Of a stretch of DNA of 64,000 bases, positions 8,066 to 62,541 are shown in pieces (within the stretch, counting starts at the first letter, position 1; each line of letters starts with the position of its first letter). The DNA is taken from positions 817,770-881,769 of the forward strand of contig CAWUCO010000283.1 of the NCBI GenBank assembly GCA_963920705.1, written 5' to 3'. The notes beneath the pieces were generated by a model. The model saw only the letters and a list, made by a program, of their open reading frames with translations. It was not told where the DNA came from and searched no databases. This DNA comes from Odiellus spinosus. Lineage: Eukaryota; Arthropoda; Arachnida; Opiliones; Phalangiidae. Made by a program: the position numbers and the translations under genes.

Positions 8066-9561
8066 GTGTTAATTTGAATTGCGCCGAGAATAAGGTATCA
8101 TATGTCATGACAGTACTGGGGTTTGTTGTATCGGCAGGGTGTACTTGCAAACTATACGAATGTATGTTAACCTCAGCTACGAGTTTGACCCCAGTCAATC
8201 CACTCATCGATACAATATCGGATATGGTGGACGCCGTTGGAAAAGGGGATTACGTCATCAGTGCCTGGAAAGGTACATCTTACTACGAAGAACTTAGTAA
8301 AAAGCGTGATGCAAATAAATTAGATCATTTTCACTTATAGAAACCTTCGAAGTTGGAATACGTAAAAATATTCGCCCAGTCAACTATGAAAAAAGATTTT
8401 GTGGCACCAGAAACTTTCGAAGAATATACTAGAATGTTGCTAAGAGGGATATTAGCAGCGATTACATATTTAAGTACGATTAAATGGATTCTCGTAGAAA
8501 ATAACCTCCCAATGAACACGCTTCACTTTGGCAAAGAGAACATCTTCGTCGATTTCATCGCTGTTGCTTTGCTTAAACATTCATTTTACAGAAATGAACT
8601 CAACAAATGGTACGTAGAACCAAAAGTCTGTAACATCAGTTAGCGCAGCCATAAATTTCAATTCCTTATAGGAAATATAGGAATATTTTTCCCAAAATAT
8701 AGGATTATACAGGCTACAAAATTGGGTTTCATATAGGGCGGAAATTATCTCAACTCCGGAATTTCTCCATAGAGTGGCGTGTTCGATTTCACTATTTACA
8801 AGGCGACAGCGATCGCTAGAATGTCTCGAATCGGAATCAGAGGCTATAAAGTAAGAACTAACAAAATCCACGTGTACGTCTGCCTATTCTTTACCTAAAG
8901 CAGACACGCACGAGGTTTTGTTAGTTCTTAATTTCCAAGTATGTTTGCCGTTAGAGGGCGCTTATAAACCCAAACCTGGTTTTGTTATTCCTCTTTGTCT
9001 ATTAGGTTGTAAACAGTCCTCATTGCCCTCCGTATCTTTAAAACTGGGCGAGGAATAAGTGGCTTAACATTCAGGCCAAGTTGATAGCGGGCTTTCTAGA
9101 TCTCTGTGACGGTAGCCTTTCTAGAAAGGAGTCAAGGGGTCACGAATCAGAGACGACGGAATGAGGCCGAGATGTTTAGGGGCTCTTCGTATATCTTATA
9201 AGAAAAATAGGATCTATATTATTTTTTTATTATCAAAGTTCGTTTAGTAGTTCGCCTTCGAAAATTATCTTATACGACTTCGTGGTCGCCGGATGGAAAC
9301 CGCAGAAACAAAGGGAACCGACGCATTTCATTTTATACATTTATTAAATTTATTTATTTGAATGTGTTAATCGGTTCTGGCTTAATTAACAAGTGGCATT
9401 CCGAACTAGACGAGCATGTCAATCAAACAAGGACAACTACCGAGGATGTCAACCTGAATTATATCGGATTTAATGACCTGAAATTTATATTCCTTAATCT
9501 AATTGGAGGATATTTGGCTGGCTTGGCTAATTTACTATTAGAATTTTTTTCCATCAATTAA
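8066..9561 (+). pseudogene. Divergent ionotropic receptor (IR), 3' part, broken
   Basis: IRs are arthropod/protostome chemosensory ion channels related to ionotropic glutamate receptors. Exon 1 (8066 to about 8609) follows an acceptor TTTTCTCTGTTTTAG. It encodes an M3-like hydrophobic helix (VSYVMTVLGFVVSAG), then ligand-binding S2 sequence including AWKGTSYYEEL. The second exon (about 9360-9561) gives IGSGLINKW and a last helix (FIFLNLIGGYLAGL), the usual IR ending. Two lesions are visible. A TAG at 8338-8340 interrupts the frame. The last exon, expected at 9360 from phase (TG joined to G giving Trp, as in the 53-kb relative), has no AG in front of it. Upstream exons were not found. An acceptor-like tract ends at the TAG, but no donor seen would restore frame. 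Confidence 0.55.
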
Positions 9562-9738
9562 GAGTCGATGTTTCGGTACCACAACTCTTAACTACACTTT
9601 AAAGTGAGACTGTCACAATATTTGTCGAATGCCTATGGATTATATTTTAAGTTCTATCATACTATTAAAAGGTCATATTGAAAATTTTATACCTCTGGGT
9701 ATAACTTATTCGAAGATAAAGTAAAAAACCTAATCCAC

Positions 9739-11005
9739 CAGGGTTGGTGATTTAAATCAGTTTGATTTAAATCAGTTTGATTTAAATCAGTTTGATTTAA
9801 ATCAGTTTGATTTAAATCAGTTTGATTTAAATCAGTTTGATTTAAATCAGTTTGATTTAAATCAGTTTGATTTAAATCAGTTTGATTTAAATCAGTTTGA
9901 TTTAAATCAGTTTGATTTAAATCAGTTTGATTTAAATCAGTTTGATTTAAATCAGTTTGATTTAAATCAGTTTGATTTAAATCAGTTTGATTTAAATCAG
10001 TTTGATTTAAATCAGTTTGATTTAAATCAGTTTGATTTAAATCAGTTTGATTTAAATCAGTTTGATTTAAATCAGTTTGATTTAAATCAGTTTGATTTAA
10101 ATCAGTTTGATTTAAATCAGTTTGATTTAAATCAGTTTGATTTAAATCAGTTTGATTTAAATCAGTTTGATTTAAATCAGTTTGATTTAAATCAGTTTGA
10201 TTTAAATCAGTTTGATTTAAATCAGTTTGATTTAAATCAGTTTGATTTAAATCAGTTTGATTTAAATCAGTTTGATTTAAATCAGTTTGATTTAAATCAG
10301 TTTGATTTAAATCAGTTTGATTTAAATCAGTTTGATTTAAATCAGTTTGATTTAAATCAGTTTGATTTAAATCAGTTTGATTTAAATCAGTTTGATTTAA
10401 ATCAGTTTGATTTAAATCAGTTTGATTTAAATCAGTTTGATTTAAATCAGTTTGATTTAAATCAGTTTGATTTAAATCAGTTTGATTTAAATCAGTTTGA
10501 TTTAAATCAGTTTGATTTAAATCATTGATTTAAATCACTTGATTTTTTTAAAAAATTATTTGATTTAAATCAAAGATATTTGGAGTATTTTCAAAAAAAA
10601 AGTATCAGGAGCAGATCACAGGAGTAAACTAAGACTTTATCAAGCCTTCAAAATAAGACTTTAGCTCTTTAAACTTCTTTTTTTAAACTGCACTGTCTAT
10701 CACTGACATGTGACAAACAATGAAACAATAATATTGCTTATATTTCTTAAAAAGTTAAAAAAAACTTTCGTAAGTTATTAGTAAAGTTATTAGTAAAGTT
10801 ATTATGTACTACGGATTATAGTGATTCAAAATTTGAATAGGGCAATTGTTGAAAGTCATTGAAATTATCTTTACTTTGAATAATTGAATTTGTCTTGTTG
10901 AAAATCAATAAAAATAAAATCAATAAAATCCAAAAAATCGGATTTTACTCAAATAAATGGTTTTTTTTTATTTTTTTTTAAAAATCATAAAAATTGCCAA
11001 CCCTG
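9739..11005. mobile_element. hAT-type MITE with expanded internal array
   Basis: The ends are CAGGGTTGG and CCAACCCTG, and both sides carry TAATCCAC (9731-9738 and 11006-11013). An 8-bp duplication with CAGGG ends is typical of hAT elements. It is 1267 bp with no transposase. It inserted into a dispersed repeat, whose two halves resume on either side (CTTATTCGAAGATAAA before; ATCCGTTTTTATCC after). Confidence 0.8.
9748..10524. repeat. Perfect 15-bp satellite-like array, about 51 copies
   Basis: The unit TTTGATTTAAATCAG is repeated with no visible difference for about 775 bp. Each unit holds the perfect 12-bp palindrome TGATTTAAATCA. Degenerate copies continue to about 10575. Confidence 0.95.
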
Positions 11006-42421: not shown

Positions 42422-42718
42422 TTAAAGGGGTCCTTCGGAGCCTTGGCAGCCTCCCCTTTCTTTTCCCCAACCCCCTTCGTTTTTCGTGCCCCCCCCCCTC
42501 CAAATCTGCTTTCCGTTCAAAAATTTAAAAATATATCTACTTTTTTGAGCGATTTTAGACAAACTTAGAAATTGAGTGAATTGGCCTATGAACCCCCTTC
42601 TCCTCCCATGTTGTCACGTGTGATAAGTTGCGCGCGCTTATTTTTGTGGATTACCCAGAAGTCAAGGAGGCTGGACGCTGGAGCTGTTGCCTAAGGCTTA
42701 ATTGTTTAAAATTTTAAA

Positions 42719-43868
42719 ATGCCTTGTTTATGTAATTCTAATTGCTTAAGTAAAAATAGAAATGCATGTCAATGCAGACTGGATAAAGTAAATTGTACGA
42801 ATTTATGTAAATGTGGACATAATATTTTATGTTGTAATGGGAAAGAGCCCGAGCCCTCATGTCCCCCAATAAAAAGGGTTAGGAAAAATTTGAAAAAAGC
42901 AGTAAGGCAGCCTGTTACAGCCATGTGACCCGACTAAGCCAAGGGAAGAAACTTTAGCCGAGCCTGCCGCGAAGCAAGGCCAAAATCCAGCAAAAGAATT
43001 GGAAAAAAATATACTCTGTCAGGTATTTAAATCAAATGCCCTTTTAGGAAATGACCATAAACTCCCCTGACCCCCAATGTATGCAATCGTAGCAAACGCC
43101 GAAGGTGCTATTGTACAGTTGTCTCCAAAAGAACATTTCCTTTTACTATGGGTGACCCCATAGAAAAAGGAATGGTTCTTTTGAGAAAAATGTTAAAATT
43201 ATAAGTTTTTAATTTTTATATTACGTTACAAACTTTTATTAACATGTGGAATCTTAATTTAGGGAACTGATAAAGTAAATGTAAAGGGTTTAACAACCTC
43301 GCAGTTGAGGTTAATTCTTGAAAGAGTACAGGAAGAAAACCCCCACATAAATATAAAAAATTATTTAGAACCAATAATTGAATGTACCGAGCAAGAAGAG
43401 CTCTGGGAGAAGGAAGTAGAGGATTTTATTGCTATGGAAGCAGAGGATATCGTTGATGATCCCCCACCACCAATTCCGAACCCAGGCGGGGTAAACCACC
43501 CGGTATGGCGCAAATGTGAAAAGTGCCGGGAGATGCCAATCCCCGAGGAAAGGAAATGCTGCTCCAGGAGAAGGAACATGGGTTGCATTACGGATTACCA
43601 TAACTTCGAAAATTTAATTTTAAACAGAGAAGTTCTGGAAATCCAGATGGAAATCCGACAAAACCTTGTCCACCTTCTCCTGGAGGATGGCGATCACAAT
43701 AAGAGGTATCGCCACGCCGCTTACAGGCAATACATTTATTGGCAATGGGGGCGACTCGGTCAGGGAAACCGAAAGGTCATTCCCTCTTGTGTAGTGTGGA
43801 AAATAAGAGAAAGGTTTCCCCACCCGCTAAACATCTACACTGGGTACAAAAATAATCATATAATTTAA
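42719..43868 (+). CDS. CXC plus P2X7 ballast-domain protein, carried by the transposon
   Basis: Exon 1 starts at the ATG at 42719. It encodes a cysteine-rich CXC-like stretch (CNSNCLSKNRNACQC, then NCTNLCKCG) followed by a basic tail. A later exon begins at 43263 after AATTTAG and runs to TAA near 43868. It ends in the domain known from the cytoplasmic tail of vertebrate P2X7: WRKCEKCREMP, EERKCC, ILNREVLE, RHAAYRQYIYWQWGRLGQGNR and IPSCVVWKIRERFP. That domain binds zinc through its cysteines. No channel part exists, so this is not an ion channel. Exon 1 stays open to a TGA at 42926; I could not place the donor with confidence, and an extra exon or a frame lesion at 42910-43020 is possible. 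Its place inside a TTAA-flanked element suggests a transposition-related role. Confidence 0.7.
43126..43183. other. 58-nt hairpin in the intron of the ballast-domain gene
   Basis: CAAAAGAAC at the left pairs with GTTCTTTTG at the right, and the inner stem CTATGGG pairs with CCCATAG around a tiny loop. There are only a few mismatches. It resembles a precursor-microRNA fold or a tiny MITE. Confidence 0.5.
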
Positions 43869-44019
43869 ATAATTTTTTATTATTTCTGGCTTTTGCACTG
43901 CACATAGAGTTTGAATGTTGTGTTTCCTACTTTTCATTTTTAAAATTTAAATTTTACCTGATTTTACTACTTTTTTAACTCACCCTTTGTTTTTAACCAA
44001 TTTTTTTTTCATTCTACTT

Positions 44020-44770
44020 ATTTAGTTTGAATGTTTATTTTTTAACAAAGTTTGATTGTTTAATTTTTTTTTACTTACCAAACATCTCAATGTACTGTAG
44101 TTTAAATGTGCTGTTTTGTTTTAATGTTTATTTTTTAAGTTTGATTGTTTGCATTTTTTTATATTTAACTCACTCTTTGAATGTTTTTAACCACGTAATT
44201 TTTTTTTTCATTCTGCTTATTGTTTTGTTTTAATGTTTATTTTTTAAGTTTGATTGTTTACATTTTTTATATTTAACTCACCCTTTGAATGTTTATAACC
44301 ACGTACCTTTTTTTCATTCTGCTTATTGTTTTGTTTTAATGTTTATTTTTTAAGTTTGATTGTTTACATTTTTTATATTTAACTCACCCTTTGAATGTTT
44401 TTAACCACGTAATTTTTTTCATTCTGCTTATAGTTTAGTTTGAATGTTTATTTTGTAAGTTTTATTGTTTAAATTTTTTTTTATATTCAACTCTATTAAT
44501 TTCTCTCCCTTCTATCAATTTCTAAATTCCACGTTTCTTCTCATTTCTATCAATTCTTTTACTTTCTATTAATTCATCTCTTTTTAATTTTTATTAATTT
44601 CTCTGAATTCCATGTTTCTTCCCGCTTCTATTCTTCTGAATTTCATGTTTCTTCTCCCTTCTATTAATTCCTTTGAATTCCATGTTTCTTCCCATTTCTA
44701 TTAATTCCTCTCCTTTCTATTAATTGGTTGGTTTCTTACTGCATCTCTTGAATTTCAAGTTATTTTCGTA
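44020..44770. repeat. AT-rich and pyrimidine-rich tandem repeats between the two genes
   Basis: About five units of roughly 105 bp (TTTTAATGTTTATTTTTTAAG, TAACTCACCCTTTGAATG) span 44020-44480. Sequence 44500-44760 repeats a ~55-bp unit (AATTCCATGTTTCTTCCC). The tract separates the 3' ends of two convergent genes. Confidence 0.7.
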
Positions 44771-47333
44771 ATTTTAAAGATGTCTTGGGGATTGAATAAT
44801 TAAGAATGAAATATTTTATCCCTGCTAATTTCATCTTTCGACTCATTTAAGTCAAAATTGATTAAAAGAGGTCCAAATTTGGTATGTTTTTCTCTTTCTG
44901 AAATTAATTCGCACCGGGAAGGGCACGGGGTCTTCGCAATATTTTTGCGGTTTGTGGTCTTTGCTGGATCTTCTGGGAACATGTCCGTAACACTTCGTAC
45001 CACTTCTCCAGACATGGTAAGGTGTAAAAGTTCCTTCGCGTACTGATGAGTTTTGGGGATCTTCACTGGCACCACAGTCCATTTAGATGTGACCTTAGAA
45101 TACTTGGCTTTCATTCTGATTTTGTAAAAATTTATTTCAAATTAGAATATTAATAAATAGCATAAACTTGTTCTGTAGTTCTCAGATTCACTATAAATCT
45201 TTAAACAATATAATTATATTTTACCTAACTTCGCCATTTTTGTCAACAGATACTGGCCGGAATATGTTGCTGTTATAGTCCAAAATGGCCAAAACATTCC
45301 TCGCAATATATCCTTTCCAACTAATATATGGGCATTAGTGACATATTAACATAGTTATGGATAGCATACTTACGGATAATTTAGACGTTTTGGAACATAT
45401 TTCAGTGACATGCTGTGATACGACTCTAGAGCCCCAGTATGTCTAAAATAAATTTGGGTATTACGTTTAGTTGTTTTTGGTCTGAAAATATCTTCGTTAT
45501 TACAAACTACAAACCTGAAATTCTTATAGTAGGGAAAGTCTTTAAGGAAAGGTTTATCACAAATAATTTTTTGCAGTTCTTTAAATGCAAGACTTGATTT
45601 TTCCAACCATGGCTTTGTCCTTTCAGTTTCATTAAGTTGTTCGTGCCTACATTGCCCCAATGGAAACTAGTGCACATTTTGCACATGAGTAAATGTGAAA
45701 TCCAGAGCATCTAAAGAAAATATGAAATTTGTTTAAGTAATTATGTTTTTAGTCTTAATTTGAACAGGGCTTGAGGGCTTGAAAATCTAAACAGTCAAAA
45801 CTTTGAACCCTGACGAGATTTAGAAAATGTTTTAACTCAGATTCGAGTGTGCACACCCCTAGATAATTTTACTCTAGTACAGAGGACATAATACTAGTTC
45901 AGAGATATGGGTAATTAAATGAACTTATACATACTATCATTGTGTTGGAGTCAGCATTACAATGTTTCGAACACCACCAGAAATGTGTTACTATATCGTC
46001 AATCCATTGGGCCAAAACCTGACAACCATCTTGTTTGGATGTCTTAAAATACATTATTTCATATTAAAGCTAAACAAAGGAACTTTGAGGCGTTACTAAA
46101 ACTCACAGCTGCAATACGTTTTTTCAAAATTTTGGCTACATGCCAAATGTCGTGTGAATGTTTTATTTGTGGATACTCCTTTCCTAAAAAAAGGTTTAAG
46201 AAAGTAAAATTGAAATATTGTATACTTTCAAGGTAATATTATTTTGTGTGTTACTCATAATTGACTTGATTTGTATGTGACCATCTGTTACGAGTTCGCT
46301 AATGGTGCAATGCTTTTGCAACTTGTCAATTAGTCGTCGAAAACATAAAGCCTCCATACTGGTACTTTTGTTATCAGTGAGCCGGCAATCCGCAAACTCT
46401 ACAGCTATAATTTTAGAGGTTTTCATGTCGATAGCAGTGTAGGTACAGTTCTTCGCACAGTAACCGGGAGAATCCATTCGTGCATCACAAGAGATTATCA
46501 ATCCATCAGCGCGGTTTGCAAGCATTGACAGCCAAAATGATAGGGATAAAACAGTTAGCTCTATAATAAACACAAGTTTATAAAACCTTACTTGATTGGA
46601 ATCCCAAAAGTGCATTATCGCAGGGTAACACTCATTTACCTGCTTGTCAATAACTGTAGTGGTTCCAATACTTTTTAAACTGATTAATTTACATAAATTA
46701 TCAAACTGGAAGGAGAGAATATTAGATCAGATGTATACTCATTTTCACTTTTTGGTATTTATTATGGCAAAGCTAGATTGTTGCAACAAGATATTAGGAG
46801 TTTCCCTGGAAGAATATCTCAACTTTTAGCCTCATGTGTTTGAAAACTGTGTAATCGCTATAGATGACGATTCACCCTATATTTAGAACTAAACCCAATT
46901 TCTTGCTTCAGCTGTAGTGCTTTTCTTAACTACCTTTGAAAATGAACAGCCTGAATATAATAATGCTCCAGCCAGCTTCAAATTAAAATTGCTAGCAGTG
47001 GATTAACATTTGTTGTAATGGTACTGCTTTCGTTTACAACATTTCCATGAAACGCAGAAATTTGCCCCTACGAAATACGTATTGAAAGAAATTTCTTTAC
47101 GGCAATCATCAATTTGACAAATTGAGCCAATTCACGATTTCACGAGTTCTTCAATTCCCTTTGTAGATGCAAAACAATGATTGGTCTCATCTGGCCTGAC
47201 ATCTGCATCCACACTATCATCATCAGAAAAATTAATTGATTTGGCAACAGCGGGACTACCAGCAGTTGCGCTAGTGAAATTAATTTTAAATTAGTTTATT
47301 AAATCCCAGTGGAATGTCAGTGAACAAGGCTTA

Positions 47334-47775
47334 GGTTGCATTGGGTAGGGGAAGAAGGGGGAACGGGAATTTATATTTCCGAGAGACGTCTCTGTCGTCC
47401 GCGACTCCGCCCATGATTATGCATACTTGTCAGGCATCACTCTTTTTACCGAGGTCTAATATTCTAGCCCATATCTAAATGTAAGTTCGCCTAAATGCCA
47501 CAAAAACGTTTAAATTTAATTATTTTGCGAGGGTTATGCCGACTGACTATTACAGAGATAATACATATTCAAAAGACCCTCACAAAATATTTAAATTTAA
47601 ACTATTTTTATGGCACTTAGGTGAACTTACATTTAGATATGGGCTAGAATACTAGACCTCGATAAAAAGCGTGATGGCCAACAAGTATGCGGAATCATGG
47701 GCGGAGTTGTGGACGACAGAGAGACGTCTCTCGAAATATAAATACCCATTCCCCCCACTTCTACCCAATGCAACC
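47334..47775. mobile_element. Palindromic MITE, TA target duplication
   Basis: The ends are GGTTGCATTGGGTAG and its reverse complement. TA lies on both sides (47332-47333 and 47776-47777). Long arms (GAGACGTCTCT, GGGCTAGAATA, GTAAGTTC) make it a 442-bp near-palindrome. It sits in an intron of the transposase gene, probably as a mariner-like MITE. Confidence 0.75.
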
Positions 47776-48376
47776 TACAAACACAAAATAATTGTGTGTT
47801 CCTTTGGAAAACACAATCTGCAACCAAACAGAACACCCCATATACTAACTTTGTCCTAAAACTTTGATTAGATAAGTCACTATGAACCGATCCAAAGTTT
47901 GAAATTGGAGATGCATTTGGTGGAGTGTTGGTTCTGAAATTAAAATATTTTTTATTAAGATTATTACAATTTAATTGGATATAAATAAAACTTACTTTCT
48001 CCAAAACATTTTTCTTCTTGGCGTAACTATCACTCTCGGGGTGCTAAATCTCGGACTGTTAACGTCGCAAAATTTCCTTTTGTTAGGAGTTAAAACCTGA
48101 ACTAGAGGTACTGGATTCAACACTGTAACAATTATATTACGTTAATTTAGAAAAAGATATTTTTACATTCAGTTATTCCATGACAAATCAAATCGTTAGT
48201 CTTTTCTCGTGGACCCCCCCCCCCCCATTTTTTTGGGCTGTCGAATTATGTGTTTTACCATTCAAAAGTTTATCGCCTAAATCTTTTACTGGAGTGCTAA
48301 CTGGAGTGGGATCAGGATCATCCTCGTCTCCTTCTTGCGGCAAAATTTCTTCCACAAAACTATCATCAAAGTTGGC

Positions 48377-49190
48377 AATCCCTTTTTCAACGTGATCTGG
48401 AATAAAGATACCAAAAATGTATCTCCATTACCTGCGGTGTTAGATTCTTATCCAACAAATAAGCACAAGAAGAAACTAGGAAAAAAAATTATTCTGGTTA
48501 CTAAATTATGCGTTACCTATTTTACAAGGCAATCTTGGTTCGTCTTCAAAACTGGCGATTTGATCGAGCGCTGGAATAAAGATAGAAAAGATTCCACAAT
48601 TTAATCTACATTACCTGCGCCGTTATATTTTACATCCAACGAACAATATTCATCATTCGACAAAAAAACCTAAGAAACTATGGGGAAAAAAGTTCTGGTT
48701 ACTAAATTATGCGTTACCTATTTTACAAGGGAATCTTGGATCGTCTTCAAAACTGGCGATTTCATCGTGCCCTGGAATAAAGATAGAAAAGATTCCACAA
48801 TTTAACCTACATTACCTGCGCCGTTATATTTTACATCCAACGAACAATATTCATCATTCGATAAAAAACCTAAGAAACTATGGGGGAAAAAAGTTCTGGT
48901 TACTAAATTATGCGTTACCTATTTTACAAGGCAATCTTGGATCGTCTTCAAAACTGGCGATTTCATCGTGCCCTGGAATAAAGATAGAAAAGATTCCACA
49001 ATTTAACCTACATTACCTGCGCCGTTATATTTTACATCCAACGAACAATATTCATCATTCGATAAAAAACCTAAGAAACTATGGGGGAAAAAATTCTGGT
49101 TACTAAATTATGCGTTACCTATTTTACAAGGCAATCTTGGATCGTCTTGAAAACTGGCGATTTCATCGTGCACTGGAATAAAGATAGAAA
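48377..49190 (-). repeat. 201-bp tandem repeat, each unit carrying one 54-bp exon
   Basis: Units recur at intervals of 200-201 bp (TAAAGATAG marks at 48577, 48778, 48979 and 49179). Each holds, on the minus strand, an acceptor TTTATTCCAG, a 54-nt exon (48517-48570, 48718-48771, 48919-48972, 49119-49172) and a donor GTAACG. The exon is phase-symmetric and reads HDEIASFEDDPRLPCKI with few changes, so any number can be included without shifting frame. Confidence 0.75.
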
Positions 49191-49512
49191 AAATTTTTTT
49201 TTCCTTTTGTTTTTGACGAGCTAGGGCCAGAGGCCTTACAGCTCTAGTAAATATTTTAAATTTACATTAAAGTATAATGTTATTGTAACAAATTAACAAC
49301 ATTAAGATCAGTATTAATATAATTGGTAGTGAGACCGCAGAAGAGACTTAAAAAGTTGCACAGAGCGAACCGCCACTATATCTTCGGGAAGGGCATTCCA
49401 CTGGGGGATGACTCGACGGAAAAAGGAGTTCTTCAGAGGGTCTTTAAAGGCAAAGGTGAGGGCCAGTTTGCGAGAGTGACCCCTGGTTGCATGGGGTTGA
49501 GGGGCACTGGTG
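49191..49512 (-). pseudogene. LINE 3' fragment inserted in the transposase gene
   Basis: On the minus strand a 60-codon frame reads RGHSRKLALTFAFKDPLKNS, then FFRRVIPQWNALP, then VRSVQLFKSLL. This is the well-known C-terminal end of CR1/Jockey-group reverse transcriptases. A 3' UTR of about 120 bp ends in an A-rich tail at 49191-49200. It interrupts the fourth 201-bp unit, whose sequence resumes at TTCCACAATTTAATC. Confidence 0.7.
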
Positions 49513-50211
49513 AATTCCACAATTTAATCTACATTAAATATATACAAAAACTTACCGTTATCCAAATAACATTCAACGCAGTACATTGCATGTTGGTCCA
49601 ATAAATGTTGAGCGAAATGCGAATTTATTTTTAGGATCGAATGAACGTTTTGGCGCAAATATGGGTTTTTAGTCTTTTTCGCTTTGAGTTTAGCCCAAAG
49701 TTCCTTAACCTCATTACGGGCCTCGGTCATCCTTCTAATATCCTTCTCGCCATTACCAAGATTAACATTTACCCACTTAGCTTTAACGTTATGCCACTCC
49801 TCCTTAGCATTTAATAGATAAACTTTAGCTTTTTCAGTTTCAAGTTGCAAAGCTCTTTGTTTAATCGCGTTGTTTAAATTTAAATGGGAAAAATCGATAT
49901 TGCTTTCAATGCCTTCCATTATAAATTCGACGGCTTCAAGAAGATTTTGGAAAGATTGGGTTTGGAAGGGTAGACAGGAAAGGCCGTAGGGCAAAAGCGG
50001 ATGAATACAAACGGCGAAAGAGTCTCACAAGCATCAGTGCTAAAAATTGGAAGCGGGAATTTGTACCAAGATCGTTTCGAAAAATGGGGCCGTCAAAAAG
50101 GGGGAAAGAAGTTTAACCCGTTAAGGCTCCGAAGGACATCTTTAAAGAGATGATATCTCTTGAAAAGAGAAATAAATATGATCAGTATTCGTGGTAAATT
50201 TATTTTTCCAG

Positions 50212-53200
50212 AAGTTAGGCGGCTATGACTTATTTCCCGCTTACTTGCAAAGATTACTAGAAGGGGAAGAAATAATGGGTTTACACTTTATCCCATTGGC
50301 GCCGATTAGCGATTGGACTCCGCAGCATTATATCACGATGAATCCCCCGCTGGTGTGGAGTAGTTACGGTTCAATCTTTGACATTGACATTCTGGTAAGA
50401 CAAACTTCGCCGGAGATTTCGTGCCCATTGTAACGGCGTTTTTCGTTTCTCTTCCTAGTCCGCGTTGTGTTTCTTACTGATGATGTTTCTGTCCGCCGCC
50501 ACGGTTTACTTCTCGACGAGATGTCTCGGAAGACAGTCCCCGAGTACCACCGGATTTTGGACAATTCTTTGGGATCATTTCGCTTCTTTGTTCTACGAGC
50601 GTAAGACAATCGAGCTTTCTCCAAAGCATTCAGCGTTACGATAAGACGTCCAAATTTTCCTAGAGATTTCGTCCAAATTTCCTAGAGATTTCTTCCAAAT
50701 TTCCCTAGAGATTTCGTCCAAATTTTCCTAGAGATTTCGTCCAAATTTTCCTAGAGATTTCTTCCAAATTTCCCTAGAGATTTCCTCCAAATTTCCTAGA
50801 GATTTCCTCCAAATTTCCTAGAGATTTCCTCCAAATTTCCTAGAGATTTCCTCCAAATTTCCTAGAGATTTCCTCCAAATTTCCTAGAGATTTCCTCCAA
50901 ATTTCCTAGATATTTCCTATAAATTGATCTTTGGTATCGTTTCAGCCTTTCCCTCGGATTCAGGCGTATCGTCGATTAGGTTGACGCTTGGTTTTTGGTT
51001 ATTAGGCTTTACCATTTTTTGCAACGAAATCAATGCCGTCTTTAAAGGGAAACTTTCCATCAAAGAATACGCCATCGTTGAGACTGATGAAGACTTGGAC
51101 AAGTTAGGCTACCAATTGGACTATGAGGCACGAAAAAAATAGGTCTTCTCAGTTAAGGATTCGAAATTCAATTGTCTTTTACCCCTCTTCAGACGAGGCG
51201 TAATTAGCCAGATTAATCAGATTTAACCGAGCTTTAGGTTATTTTATGTTGGGGTAGGTTAGGCGGGTAAGATTAGGGTATACAAATAAGACGAAAAAAC
51301 AAAGAATATAGTATTTCTCTACTCACTGGATCTATTATACTTTAAATTTTAGGGCCATTTATTGGTTACTTTGTAAGGTTAGGTTAAGACAGTTTTGCTT
51401 ATACAAATAAGACACGCTACCTAAATATAGAACTTATGGAACTACTTTAGAAAATACACCTGAAAAACAAATAAACAAGATGGTTAGCCGCGTGTTAAGA
51501 GGAAGGGATAAACCAGGAGGTCACGTGATTAGCAGAACAAACCGCAGTGCCATCTAGAGAAGGGTTAAGGATTATGAGATAGTTCGATTATTTTATTGGC
51601 TATATTATGTAGTCTGCTAATTTTTCTAAAACTACATGAACTAGGCCTAGACGATATCAAGACGCTATTATAGAAGTAAATAACCTTAAAAAATTACATT
51701 GAAGTTTCTTTTATCAACGTTCATTTTTTTCTTTTAGTTACCAGTAATAACCTAAATCACGATAATATTAAGTTTTGAGATTTAATATCTATTAATCAAT
51801 AAAATAATATTGATATTACCGAAATCGCCATAGGACTTTGGAAATGTTACAGACAATCTATAGCAGAAGACAGTTTTTTTTTTCTAAACTCAAAAAATCA
51901 GTCTTTGCGCAAGACAAAAATCAGCCAATCAATCGTTCCCTTCCTCATATATTTCCCGGCAAACTAGACTGAGGCCGTTAGAATATTTCAAAGGATTTGT
52001 TTTTCAGGTGTATTGGTGTACGCGTATAACTAAAACGCCGACCTCTATACACGTATATGGCGTGTACGGGGGTTTTAAGGAAACTTCTTATAATTGGTCG
52101 AGCTAAGAGTTTAATTGTTCTTCGTATTTTCTAGCATACAACGATGAAAACTTATCACAACGATAGTAAGAGAGCTTGGAATAAAATTATTCTCGCGTTA
52201 TTTGGCGACTAAATATCAACCGTGGGCTAAATAAGGACCTGTCCATTACAAATGGCATTGATACCTAACGGGGATCAAGAACGGCAAACTTACATGGCCA
52301 CCATCAACACCCCAACCCTCCCCCGCTTACAAAAGAGAAACTGCATTTACAGCAGGGGCGGAAATAAGCGCGAGACACTGGGTATTGTCCGATAAATTTT
52401 CCAAATTTCCAAGAACTTTTCATTTTTGAGAGGGATTCGGCTGAACTCACCATTCTCGGCCGTACCTAAGTTTGTTTTGACCCAAGCAAAGCTTGTTTTG
52501 GCCCAAGCAAAGCTTGTTTTGGCCCAAGCAAAGTTTGTTTTGGCCCTAGCAAAGTTTGTTTTGGCCCTAACAAAGTTTGTTTTGGCCCTTCCAAAGTTTG
52601 TTCAGACCCTCCCAAAGTTTGTTCGACCCTTATTATTCCGCACGGTGATGATATTGTACGCTTCTCTCGTGGTCGAATCGCTGAACAAAATATATGATGA
52701 ACCAATTCTAATAAACTTCTCGATGGGAATCAGTAATGAACAATGACAGCGAGCTTCTGAGAGGTCTGACCCCTGACCTTCGGTGCTCGCTATTACGGGT
52801 TCCCACCAGTTCTTATAATATTGGATTGTAGAAATAGTTTTCATTAAACACGCGTTAACCTATTTGATACAGACTACGGGACTAAAACGAAAATTATTTT
52901 GGGGACCATATACTGGGACATAGACTCTTCAAATGATTTCTACATCTCAAAGAAATCCGCTTCAGAGAAAATTTCCTCACGACAAATATGGCTGGGTATT
53001 AACGAGTCGAGCGCGATCAAGTACGATCCTCTGATACACGAAACCATCATGAACTGGTAAGCGACATTAAAACACCACGAGAATCAACTGGAGGCTTTAC
53101 AATAGCGAAATCACGTGACCATAGTGATGACGTAGTATTGCGGAAAATGTATATATAAAACATTATAAAATATTATTTTTACTGTCCTGGTATTCTATTC

Positions 53201-55735: not shown

Positions 55736-56111
55736 GCGGATCGCGCCGTCCCCACTGTTCCTCTCCTTGTCTGATCCTTCTTGACCATATTCCCAGGCAG
55801 AAAGTGACTTAGTTAACATAGACCGTGTTATAATTAAGCGTCAAATCGCGTGATATTCTATATTAAAACAAGATGGTCAAGCCCATAGAATAACTAGACC
55901 CCTGACATTGTAAAAGAGGCTGAAAGGAATGATTCTATAGCAGGGGCGTGTTATGCAGGCATAAAATCTCTTTAAACAATTTGAATGGCGTCTCGAGGTT
56001 ACTTTAAACACGAAGTGGCGGAAATTTCTCAAGCCGACTATATCACCGTGAGCGTTTTTATGCGATATTAGAAAAAGACGTACATTCGAATATCCCCGCA
56101 GTCATTGCATT

Positions 56112-56760
56112 CAAATCATATTTTTCAAATCATGTTTTTCAAAACATGTTTTTCAAAGCATGTTTTTCAACGCATGTTTTTCAACGCATGTTTTTCAACG
56201 CATGTTTTTCAACGCATGTTTTTCAACGCATGTTTTTCAACGCATGTTTTTCAACGCATGTTTTTCAACGCATGTTTTTCAACGCATGTTTTTCAACGCA
56301 TGTTTTTCAACGCATGTTTTTCAACGCATGTTTTTCAACGCATGTTTTTCAACGCATGTTTTTCAACGCATGTTTTTCAAAACATGTTTTTCAAAACATG
56401 TTTTTCAAAACATGTTTTTCAAAACATGTTTTTCAAAACATGTTTTTCAAAACATGTTTTTCAAAACATGTTTTTCAAAACATGTTTTTCAAAACATGTT
56501 TTTCAAAGCATGTTTTTCAAAGCATGTTTTTCAAAGCATGTTTTTCAAAGCATGTTTTTCAAAGCATGTTTTTCAAAGCATGTTTTTCAAAGCATGTTTT
56601 TCAAAGCATGTTTTTCAAAGCATGTTTTTCAAAGCATGTTTTTCAAAGCATGTTTTTCAAAGCATGTTTTTCAAACGCATGTTCTTCAACGCATGTTTTT
56701 CAACGCAGGTTTTTCAACGCATGTTTTTCAACGCATGTTTTTCAACACATGTTTTTCAAA
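56112..56760. repeat. 14-bp tandem array, about 46 copies in variant blocks
   Basis: The unit is TTTTTCAACGCATG or a variant. About fifteen AACGCA copies are followed by about nine AAAACA copies, about twelve AAAGCA copies and then about six AACGCA copies again. Fourteen is not a multiple of three and no unit has a stop, so all three + frames stay open for over 200 codons (MFFNACFSTHVFQR). These are not genes. Confidence 0.95.
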
Positions 56761-57417
56761 ACTTTTTTATGACTGACACACTAGAACTCAACACGCATAA
56801 GCTCCCTTCGCGACGACTTTTTTATGTTTTCGAGTTTTCATTACTGACAGACTAGAACTCAACAAGCATAAGCTCCCTTACTGTCTCGTTCGCGGCTACT
56901 TGTTCGGTGTTTTAGAGTTTTTATTACTGACAGACTAGAAACATTCTGATTCATAATCTACCTTTTAATCTCGTTCGCGACAACCCCTTAATATCGACGA
57001 TGTTTTCTGTATCGTATACCTCTGAAGATATAAGGGATTTTTCTCTCATATTATATTAAGCGCCCGTGATAACGGGGATCAGTGTCCGACACTCGATCAT
57101 ATAGCATGCAGCGTCGAGCGCTACACGAGCCTGGGAGGGAGACCACCTAAAAGTCATATATATTAAATACAAGTATATATTTTAAATCTGTATCGGACAT
57201 CACGACGTGACGTCTGGCGGGTAAGAGACGAAGTTTTTTCGATTCGATGACGTATTTCGTCTTCTTGCACAACGCCGACACCAACGCCAACGCCGACGCC
57301 GCAGTGAATACAGTACCTAAACCCCACTAGGGTTGGGTCTAGCTAAAAAGTCTTTATTTCTTTATCTTAAAAGGACAAGTCTTGGACTCAAAAACGGTCT
57401 AATATAACCGTTAAATA

Positions 57418-59564: not shown

Positions 59565-62541
59565 TTATAATTTTAACATATCAGTTAATTTATATATTCC
59601 TATTTTAATTATCCAGTTCGTAATTTGTTTCTTAAAGAGTCTTAAGTTATCACAATTTTTAATGTTCGAGTCAAGACAATTAAATAACTTGGGACCCAAG
59701 TGCAAAGCGTGTTTTTGACCAATAGTTTTAAATATTCTTTCACATGAAAGATCGGAACACACCGAAAGATTACCTTCTAAGAAAAACCGCGTATTATAAA
59801 TATTTAAAGGTAATAAATTCAACTTGTTTTTAAACGAATATAACAGAATATCTTTAGCGTATAGTTGTTTTATTGAAAAAACTTTGAATTCGCTATAAAG
59901 TAAATGCCCCGGATACAAATAGTCTTTTTTCAAACAAATACGTATAATTTTCCTCTGAAGGATTTCCAATGGCTTTATTACATTATCGTAAGCTCCACCC
60001 CAACCAATAATACCGTACGATATCTCTGATTGGATTAAAGCGTAATAGACTATCTTTATCCATGGCAAATCCAGAAAGTTCCTCAGAGTGCAAAATTTCC
60101 TGATACTTATTCTTATTCTATTTTTAACGTTATTTATTTGGTTTGTCCATTTTAAGTTAGAATCTATTTTTATCCCCAAGTATTTAACCGTATCCACCTT
60201 TTCTATCTCGAGGCATTTTAAATCACATATGTGGCAAGAGCTATCCGAATGGATTATTAAATTATTGTCTAATTTTATTGAAGTAGAAGAAAAGCAAATA
60301 TATTTAGTTTTTTCTATATTTAACGTTAGAATATCTTGATTTAGTTGAAGAATTATTTTATTTATATTTTCTTGGGCTCTAAAGAACGCATCGTCCCAGG
60401 TTATACCTTCAACAAGTAGTGTGGTGTCATCTGCGAAGGATATTATATCACCATCGATACTAACGTTACAGAGATCATTTATGTATACCAAGAAAAGTAC
60501 CGGTCCAATTACTGTTCCTTGTGGTATACCGAACTCCGTAACAAGTGGATCACTTTCTGTATCCTCAATTTTGACTACCGTGTCTCGACCACTCAAATAA
60601 CTCTTGAACCATTCCAAAACAATACCTCGTATGCCAGCTCTTTCTAATTTTTCTACGAGTATTGGATGGGAAACCGTGTCAAAGGCCTTTTTTAAATCGA
60701 GGAATATCCCGATAATTTTTTTATTTTTGTCCACCGCCCTATATAGCCGCTCTGTAACCTCTGTTATAGCGTCTTTAGTACTTAGTTTTTTCCTAAAACC
60801 ATATTGGTTTTTTGATAAATAATTGGTTGTTTCTAAAAATTGTGAAAGTTGCAATTTTATTACTTTTTCAAATATTTTTGAGATATTACTTAGCAGCGCA
60901 ATAGGTCTGTAGTTTTGTACGTCTACTTTAAGTCCTAATTTATGGATTGGTATTATTATAGCTCTTTTGAGAATTTCTGGGAATATTCCTGTGGTTAATG
61001 ATAAGTTTATTAGTTGTGCCAGTGGTTGACTAATAAACTTATTTATTTTTTTTTAGGCCTTTGACACCAATTCTATCATGACCTTTAGACTTAGAATTTT
61101 TCAGTGAGGAAATTATATTTTCGATGTCATGTGGAGTTATAGGAGTAAAAAATAAACTTCTAGGATTTCTAGAATAGCTTTTTGATGGTGAGTTTTTGTT
61201 TTTTAGTAAAATATTTTCTGCGAGCTTAGATCCGACTTGACTAAAATATTTGTTGAAAAAGTTTGCTACTTCCCTCGGGTGTTCACTAACACTATAAGTA
61301 CAGTTTCCAGTATTAATTTTTTCTATTGTTTCTTGTTTTTTAGAATTATTCATTGCTTCATTAATTGTATTCCAAACCTTCACCGCGTCTCGTTCACACG
61401 TATCTATTTTATTTTTAAAATAATCATTTTTAACTAGTCTAATTAAATTTGTTAGTTTATTCCGATAGTTTCTATAATAATTTTTTAGCGTAGCATTAAA
61501 AGGTTCTTTCTTTACACGTGTTGCAATCGAGTCCCTTTTTCGTAATGATATAACAAGCGCGTTAGTTATACAAGGTTTTAATTTTAAGGTTTTACTTGTT
61601 AGTTTTATAGCGCGTTTATTCGTACATACTTCGAGGTATTCTTGTAGAATTTGAATGAATTGATTAGACCCGACATTACAGTTCGTTGCGTTAGTTATTG
61701 CGTCCCATGTTTCATGTTTCACTAAATTTAATAACTTTTCATAATCTATTTCTTCTATCTGTTTATAATTCTAAGTTCGACGCGAGTCATTATTATTCAC
61801 GCGAATGTTTGCAATGTCAATCAATGTTAAATAGTGATCTGTAATATCTATTTCTAAGACTTTGGTTAAAATTTCATTATGTGTTCTTTGTTTAATGAAG
61901 ATATGATCAAGACAAGTTTTTAAGTTATTTGATACGCGTGTTGGGCTATTAATACAGGGAATTAATCCATTCTCGTATAACATAGTCAAATACTTATCAA
62001 CCGTAATATTCGTATGATCTAGGATGTCAATATTTATATCACCAGCCCAGATTACATTACCCACACTAGCAATGATTGGAAGTTGTACATTTAAATCATT
62101 CAGAAAATCTTGTATATTTAGACTAGGAGATCTATAGCAACCTATTATTCTATATACCATGTTATTAGGCAAAGTAATGTCTATTAATTTAGTTGTGGAT
62201 CCAATTATATTTACTTTATTTTCTATATAGATCAAGTCTTTCCTAATGTAAATACTTATGCCATCATTTTTATTTTTATATTTCCGCGTAGTTGCTGAAT
62301 TATAATTGTTAATTGAAAATTCATTAATATCATCTATTTTAAAAGTTTCTGTTAGTATAATAACATCAAACAAAAAATCCAAGGATTCCAAAAATACATT
62401 CAACTCGTCGAAGTGTTTATTTAAACTCCGAATATTTAGGTTAAATATCTTTAATCCATTTTTATTAAGGTTATTTCGACATAGAATGCCCTCTAGTTTT
62501 TTAATATTTAGGGTTAAAGAAGTATTCAAATTGTTAAACAT
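59565..62541 (-). pseudogene. LINE ORF2: endonuclease plus reverse transcriptase, two lesions
   Basis: The N-terminal part is an exonuclease-endonuclease-phosphatase domain (NLNIRSLNKH, LTET, GCYRSPS, AGDINID, CLDHIFI, ITDHY). It nicks target DNA. After a linker comes the RT domain with NYRPIALLSN, NQYGFRKKLST, FLDLKKAFDTVSH, GIPQGTVIGP and the catalytic FADDT, then KYLGIKID and the thumb-like C-terminus with LEILQRKIIRI. An in-frame TAG stands at 61771-61773 between endonuclease and linker. A shift in an A-run near 61046-61055 separates linker and RT. The RT frame is otherwise open to 59565. With two lesions the copy cannot make full-length ORF2, but little else has decayed, so it is fairly young. 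Confidence 0.8.

Follow-up and report, generated by a model that had tools for sequence, protein, structure and literature searches.

The window analysed here is a 64,000-nucleotide stretch of the genome of the opilionid Odiellus spinosus (contig CAWUCO010000283.1), and its positions 42426-50141 are almost certainly occupied by a decayed cut-and-paste DNA transposon of the Kolobok superfamily that follows the two-gene plan of Kol0, in which a transposase gene on the minus strand faces a second gene, KolX, whose two exons lie on the plus strand and which encodes the ballast domain known from the tail of the P2X7 receptor. We propose, with a probability of roughly 0.6, that KolX is a working accessory subunit and that the DNA-binding module of such elements may be placed on KolX and not on the transposase.

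Part of this picture was known before. According to Kojima and Bao (2022, PMC9587614), the KolX protein of Kol0 elements has the ballast fold, the fusion of a P2X4-like gene with KolX gave P2X7, and Nanor is a likely domesticated KolX. Both the presence of the ballast domain in a Kolobok protein and its role as the source of the P2X7 tail are published there, and an earlier note on this DNA, which saw in the transposon a route for the spread of the domain, put forward an idea that was already in print. Passages of the same paper assign KolX no function, and as the ballast half of KolX became the P2X7 tail, its role is of interest. The N-terminal CXC part of KolX, and with it the site of the DNA-binding module, looks new. 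In the literature we found nothing that joins Kolobok with a CXC domain or tesmin, and for KolX we found only PMC9587614, whose main text contains neither 'CXC' nor 'THAP' and in passages of which arthropods are not among the groups named for Kol0.

KolX as a standing part of the element

The genome searched (443 Mb, 286 contigs) contains 95 matches to the ballast exon of the window copy and 93 to the corresponding Pfam profile. For the count of gene pairs, 113 KolX matches (95 plus 18, at least one of them overlapping) were merged into 102 loci, and such a locus lies within 12 kb of 32 of the 48 transposase loci, compared with about 0.27 expected from spacing. Thirty of these pairs are on opposite strands, 25 of them convergent. 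Between families A and B, the ratio of nonsynonymous to synonymous substitution rates (dN/dS) is 0.13-0.14 for the ballast exon, 0.05-0.11 for the transposase exon and 0.16-0.24 for the CXC exon (the last with a dS of 1.4-1.5, near saturation); KolX is under purifying selection between families. Because of this proximity and this selection we regard KolX as a standing part of the element and not as cargo, the term used by the earlier note; the ballast gene is the second gene of the Kol0 lineage. The same note would have given up its reading if other copies of the ends never carried the ballast gene, and they do carry it: an A-type end (up to three mismatches) occurs in 13 of the 30 loci centred on ballast matches, with TTAA outside in 13 of 13, two of these loci being the same copy and the B copies among them sharing one 5' flank.

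Two families, H1 (18 copies) and H2 (11 copies), have KolX copies with equal or near-equal profile scores and are probably very young. An H1 element measures 6080 bp, has both TTAA copies and bears the ends AGGGATAATGAA; an H2 element measures 4603 bp and bears the ends AGGGTTACCGAC. Both families are natural material for testing the role of KolX.

It is conceivable that KolX is instead a passenger, acquired from the host and without any part in transposition. In favour of this, 16 of 48 transposase loci have no KolX match within 12 kb, and a 419-bp copy described below moved without a KolX of its own, though help in trans is possible. We consider a passenger very improbable given that the facing arrangement is found in diverged families, with the 25 convergent pairs mentioned above, as well as in 29 of 29 copies of the two young families, and given the purifying selection between families. 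Since element lineages keep KolX over long divergence, we infer that it takes part in transposition, for which it is likely to be needed.

The CXC exon and the THAP exon

A cysteine exon of KolX is present in families A, B, C, D (truncated), F and I, and in half form in E. Seven of its cysteines are invariant across six families; the total is nine in C and F, ten in A and B, seven in the truncated D and, counted by eye, nine in I, in agreement with the nine cysteines of the CXC domain of LIN54, tesmin and MSL2. With the family C exon as query, the genome yields 14 matches, each of which precedes a ballast exon in the same orientation, at up to 0.9 kb in 13 cases and at 4.5 kb in the other. A motif scan added the exon of family I (C45:811626-811952), which this query had missed and which is 2.3 kb from the ballast exon downstream of it, so that CXC exons number at least 15, in at least six families.

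With the CXC domains of LIN54/tesmin and MSL2 the exon shares a C-x-C rich pattern of about nine cysteines, and it is a single module like that of MSL2, unlike the paired modules of LIN54; families A, B, C, D and F have no tyrosine in their cores, the residue used by LIN54 (PMC4974476), and family I has one. Unlike these domains, the KolX exon was recognised in no profile-library or PDB search, and a PDB search with the CXC alignment gave no match. The DNA binding that the earlier note had suggested from the CXC motif is plausible, with a cysteine pattern conserved in six families, but Pfam and PDB searches gave no recognition of that pattern. Several candidate likenesses were rejected. The half-CXC exon at locus L030 matched only designed armadillo repeats in PDB, outside its cysteines, and the family I exon matched only a nanobody (E value 0.34). 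A LIN54-style reading of a TTTAAA insertion site, which TTYRAA would fit, was dropped because the base that precedes TTAA is not constant (T, A or C) and also because five of the six CXC cores have no tyrosine, and an MSL2-style reading via two invariant arginines held in families A-D and failed once F and I were added.

Kolobok transposases in Xenopus usually combine THAP, DDE and H2CH motifs, at TTAA sites and with AG termini (PMC6004289). In H1 and H2, a THAP exon faces KolX in 29 of 29 copies, 3.3-4.0 kb downstream, and KolX starts with an acidic stretch in the copy read. Family G (locus L070) likewise has THAP together with a KolX without CXC, and the CXC motif was not found in the THAP-family stretches L070, L072, L075 and L083. 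Among the THAP matches listed, which are 150 of the 638 first-look candidates, none faces any of the 14 CXC exons within 10 kb, and none lies within 10 kb of the family I CXC exon. The first transposase exons of A, C and D, which differ in this respect from the usual Xenopus transposases (PMC6004289), gave no THAP match at E values up to 10, in a check where HMMER filters drop most matches above 0.1 and where the L075 control scored 8.6e-16. As the first exon lies about 220 bp from the right end in A and about 190 bp in C, there is little space for a THAP exon upstream of it in these two families. The THAP that is usual, though not universal, on Kolobok transposases was thus not seen on the first exons of these CXC families. 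Their non-THAP first domain has 13 matches in the genome; a CXC exon lies within 11 kb of six of them, and no THAP match among those listed lies within 50 kb of any of the 13. Going by these sequences, the CXC cluster may serve as a DNA grip in place of THAP, a proposal to which we give slightly less than an even chance.

Several observations, besides the transposase loci without a KolX match, weigh against our proposal as a whole. Between the window copy and its sister copy, dN/dS is 1.36 for the ballast exon, 0.49 for the CXC exon and 0.48 for the transposase exon, with few changes; the CXC exon goes unrecognised by the libraries searched; the THAP comparison draws on 150 of the 638 candidates; and no CXC exon lies closer than 11 kb to seven of the 13 matches of the non-THAP first domain. 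In addition, the copies are not independent, the 29 THAP copies representing two families and the 14 CXC copies five, and the six B copies share one 5' flank and are probably segmental duplications of one insertion. The evidence from first exons covers A, C and D.

With so few independent families, the split between CXC and THAP could reflect descent only, an old CXC having been lost in the THAP-bearing branch (or THAP lost elsewhere) without any functional exchange. The KolX tree, weakly supported in its deep branches, places CXC families on both sides, including the diverged F and I, as such a history would have it. We regard descent alone as a possible but doubtful explanation, for the CXC exon is itself constrained and keeps its seven cysteines in six families. 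Because CXC families sit on both sides of this tree and occur in F and I, CXC may be ancestral to KolX here.

A stretch GRGRPKK occurs at loci L026 and L027 in an open reading frame upstream of the family I ballast exon; we take it to resemble an AT-hook.

A proposed mode of action

A DDE transposase cuts at the ends of its element and joins them to the target, which here is TTAA. The window element inserted at such a site in a host gene family. We propose that its transposase would have carried out the cutting and joining, and that KolX would have worked with it as a dedicated accessory subunit. In the usual Kolobok, THAP on the transposase would grip the ends; in the CXC families the transposase would instead begin with another kind of domain, and DNA or chromatin binding probably comes in trans from the CXC-like cluster on KolX, the zinc-built ballast being a putative docking or nucleotide-sensing part. 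The presence of CXC on KolX, together with the lack of a visible THAP on the transposase, makes it a testable proposal that KolX brings DNA binding to the transposase.

The CXC cluster might also direct KolX to the host instead of the element ends, in chromatin targeting or anti-silencing. Host CXC modules work in chromatin-related complexes, that of LIN54 in MuvB and that of MSL2 in dosage compensation (PMC4974476), but an action on the host leaves the absence of a facing THAP exon from the CXC copies unexplained by itself, and we hold it to be rather unlikely.

A more specific version of the accessory-subunit proposal would make KolX a detached subunit for gripping DNA and sensing guanine nucleotides, in which CXC would hold DNA while the ballast would bind guanosine triphosphate or diphosphate (GTP/GDP) and gate the pairing of the ends. 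Its attraction is that the P element transposase, a member of the DDE superfamily with the same C/DxxH motif, needs GTP for end pairing (PMC7776569). We consider it unlikely. The P element has THAP and a guanine-nucleotide-binding part in one protein (PMC7776569), whereas here the possible nucleotide part would be a separate protein of unrelated fold. If KolX were gated in this way, the P2X7 channel would owe its guanine pocket to a former control of the transposon, and if the pocket works in KolX, its origin in P2X7 would be explained.

The ballast domain of KolX

The open reading frame at 43263-43868 matches the Pfam profile P2RX7_C with an E value of 1.1e-31 (110.7 bits; cut-off 23.5) and P2X7 chains in PDB with a best E value of 1.9e-19, so that by sequence the second protein has the ballast fold of Kol0 KolX. 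All seven zinc cysteines of P2X7 are kept in nine of the 12 family sequences that span them and six each in the window copy, B and D, where B was recounted by eye as the aligner had split its cysteine pair at a short deletion; the sister copy has seven of seven. The residue counts leave out H2 and G, whose rows are without the C-terminal half. Equivalents of Tyr550 and Arg578 are present in 12 of the 12 sequences and of Arg546 in 10, and equivalents of Arg574 and Lys583 in none of them.

The zinc cysteines and the equivalents of R546 and R578 are common to KolX here and to the P2X7 ballast or ZCD proteins, including Nanor (PMC7016195). KolX has no channel part, and its 95 genome matches compare with fewer than 10 genes per species in Rump 2020 (PMC7016195), a study that traced the ballast across animals and whose main text does not contain 'transpos'. 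Rump 2020 found R546-H547 (His547) in deuterostomes only (PMC7016195), whereas families A, B, D and M have both residues here. We make no claim against the reported lack of ballast genes in holometabolous insects. With the ballast exon as query, one scan of viral contigs revealed no relative. Single-sequence AlphaFold models of the two window exons had mean predicted local distance difference test scores (pLDDT) of 47.5 and 45.2 and were not used.

The genome also contains, at C11:22422496-22425582, one P2X receptor gene with six exon matches and without the P2X7 tail, more than 0.7 Mb from the nearest ballast match among those listed on the contig. One of its exons is closest to PDB 5f1c, which we take to be a tick receptor. 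Together with 89 Chitin_bind_4 matches and one 7tm_6 match, these P2X exons are signs of an arthropod genome.

The window copy and its insertion site

The coordinates of the earlier note, and its description of a Kolobok-like mobile unit that holds a transposase and a ballast gene between TTAA copies, were borne out by the following features.

42422-42425: left TTAA target-site duplication; one TTAA at the paralogous empty site on contig C5
42426-42444, plus strand: left terminal inverted repeat AGGGGTCCTTCGGAGCCTT, by match to the right end
42719-42925, plus strand: KolX exon 1, CXC-like cysteine cluster; the frame stops after 69 codons in the window copy
43263-43868, plus strand: KolX exon 2, N part and P2X7 ballast domain (P2RX7_C), by Pfam and PDB matches
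45019-45432, minus strand: stretch of exons for the C-terminal part of the transposase, with LESYHS at 45397-45432 as the putative catalytic E, by motif positions
45959-46160, minus strand: stretch with DIWH (C/DxxH signature as in PMC9587614) and part of a putative zinc finger (FWWCSKHC)
46199-46726, minus strand: transposase catalytic open reading frame with the first and second D (SCDARMDSPG, VTDGHIQI); 59 genome matches
48492-49195, minus strand (that of the transposase): 201-bp tandem array, 3.5 copies, 96% matches, with short exon-like acidic stretches; exon reading by eye
49554-49919, minus strand: first exon of the transposase, with the start codon assumed and a non-THAP domain at the N-terminus; distance to the right end about 220 bp
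50123-50141, minus strand: right terminal inverted repeat, AGATGTCCTTCGGAGCCTT reading inwards, by match to the left end
50142-50145: right TTAA target-site duplication

The 15-mer GTCCTTCGGAGCCTT is found exactly at 42430-42444 (plus strand) and 50123-50137 (minus strand), with no further exact match in the window, and the outermost bases are unequal, with AGGGGTCC at the left end and AGATGTCC at the right. The span between the TTAA copies is a single insertion. The 15-mer has eight exact matches in the genome and its reversed control none; TTAA lies outside seven of the eight, the exception being locus L004, and two of the eight bound the 419-bp copy, which is built from two end regions and has TTAA. 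The 4-bp TTAA duplication is that of Kolobok, and AG termini at both ends of the window element and of the C, H1 and H2 elements agree with its 5'-RR...YY-3' pattern. The element resembles Xenopus Kolobok in its TTAA sites, termini such as AGGGG and DDE domain (PMC6004289), and Kol0 in its TTAA duplications, purine termini, C/DxxH DDE transposase and ballast-fold second protein (PMC9587614). The motifs SCDARMDSPG, VTDGHIQI, HDIWH and LESYHS follow in this order on the minus strand and give, by motif only, a DDE triad with C/DxxH between the second D and E; Pfam support is weak, with a match to Mutator only (E value 0.0024, below the cut-off).

When the two flanks of the element are joined by a single TTAA, they match paralogous stretches in a family of host genes. 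On C5 the match covers the left flank, the single TTAA and the first ten or so bases of the right flank; next come about 95 bases that are not in the window, and then the right flank again at 96% identity. Apart from this extra stretch, C5 is a paralogous empty site. On C107 the match takes in the left flank, TTAA and the next six bases, and in two paralogues on C17 the TTAA is not kept. The region 50200-51142 and the left flank seemingly belong to a host gene of this multi-copy family (paralogues on C5, C107 and C17) in which the element sits, with a 23-bp tandem array between two exon-like open reading frames.

The window copy is decayed: exon 1 of KolX is interrupted, one zinc cysteine of the seven is replaced, and there are nested insertions. 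Its sister copy (L069/L010), in which exon 1 stays open longer and exon 2 has one stop, is 95-98% identical to it in the four best-scoring aligned blocks with L069. A more distant copy on C4 (L070) has an open transposase of 838 codons with THAP (E value 3.9e-11).

Further repeats and nested sequences

The 201-bp array multiplies a short exon-like acidic stretch, and L069 aligns there in several shifted registers. Nested in the transposase gene, at 47332-47777 and about 440 bp long, is an inverted repeat whose arms are 86-100% complementary. A nested fragment at 49190-49523, shared with L069, has a minus-strand open reading frame that had no Pfam match at an E value of 0.01 and which we presume to resemble the tail of a non-LTR (long terminal repeat) reverse transcriptase. 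Within or beside a family B copy, locus L071 has a DDE_3-like (mariner-like) open reading frame at 8828-9310 on the minus strand, below the cut-off. Elsewhere in the window, a LINE-like reverse transcriptase open reading frame lies at 59568-61052 on the minus strand (RVT_1, E value 3.5e-34), with further open frames up to 63597, and long tandem repeats of the LNQTD and CFSTHVFQRMFFNA types at 9690-10529 and 56008-56852 are open in several frames.

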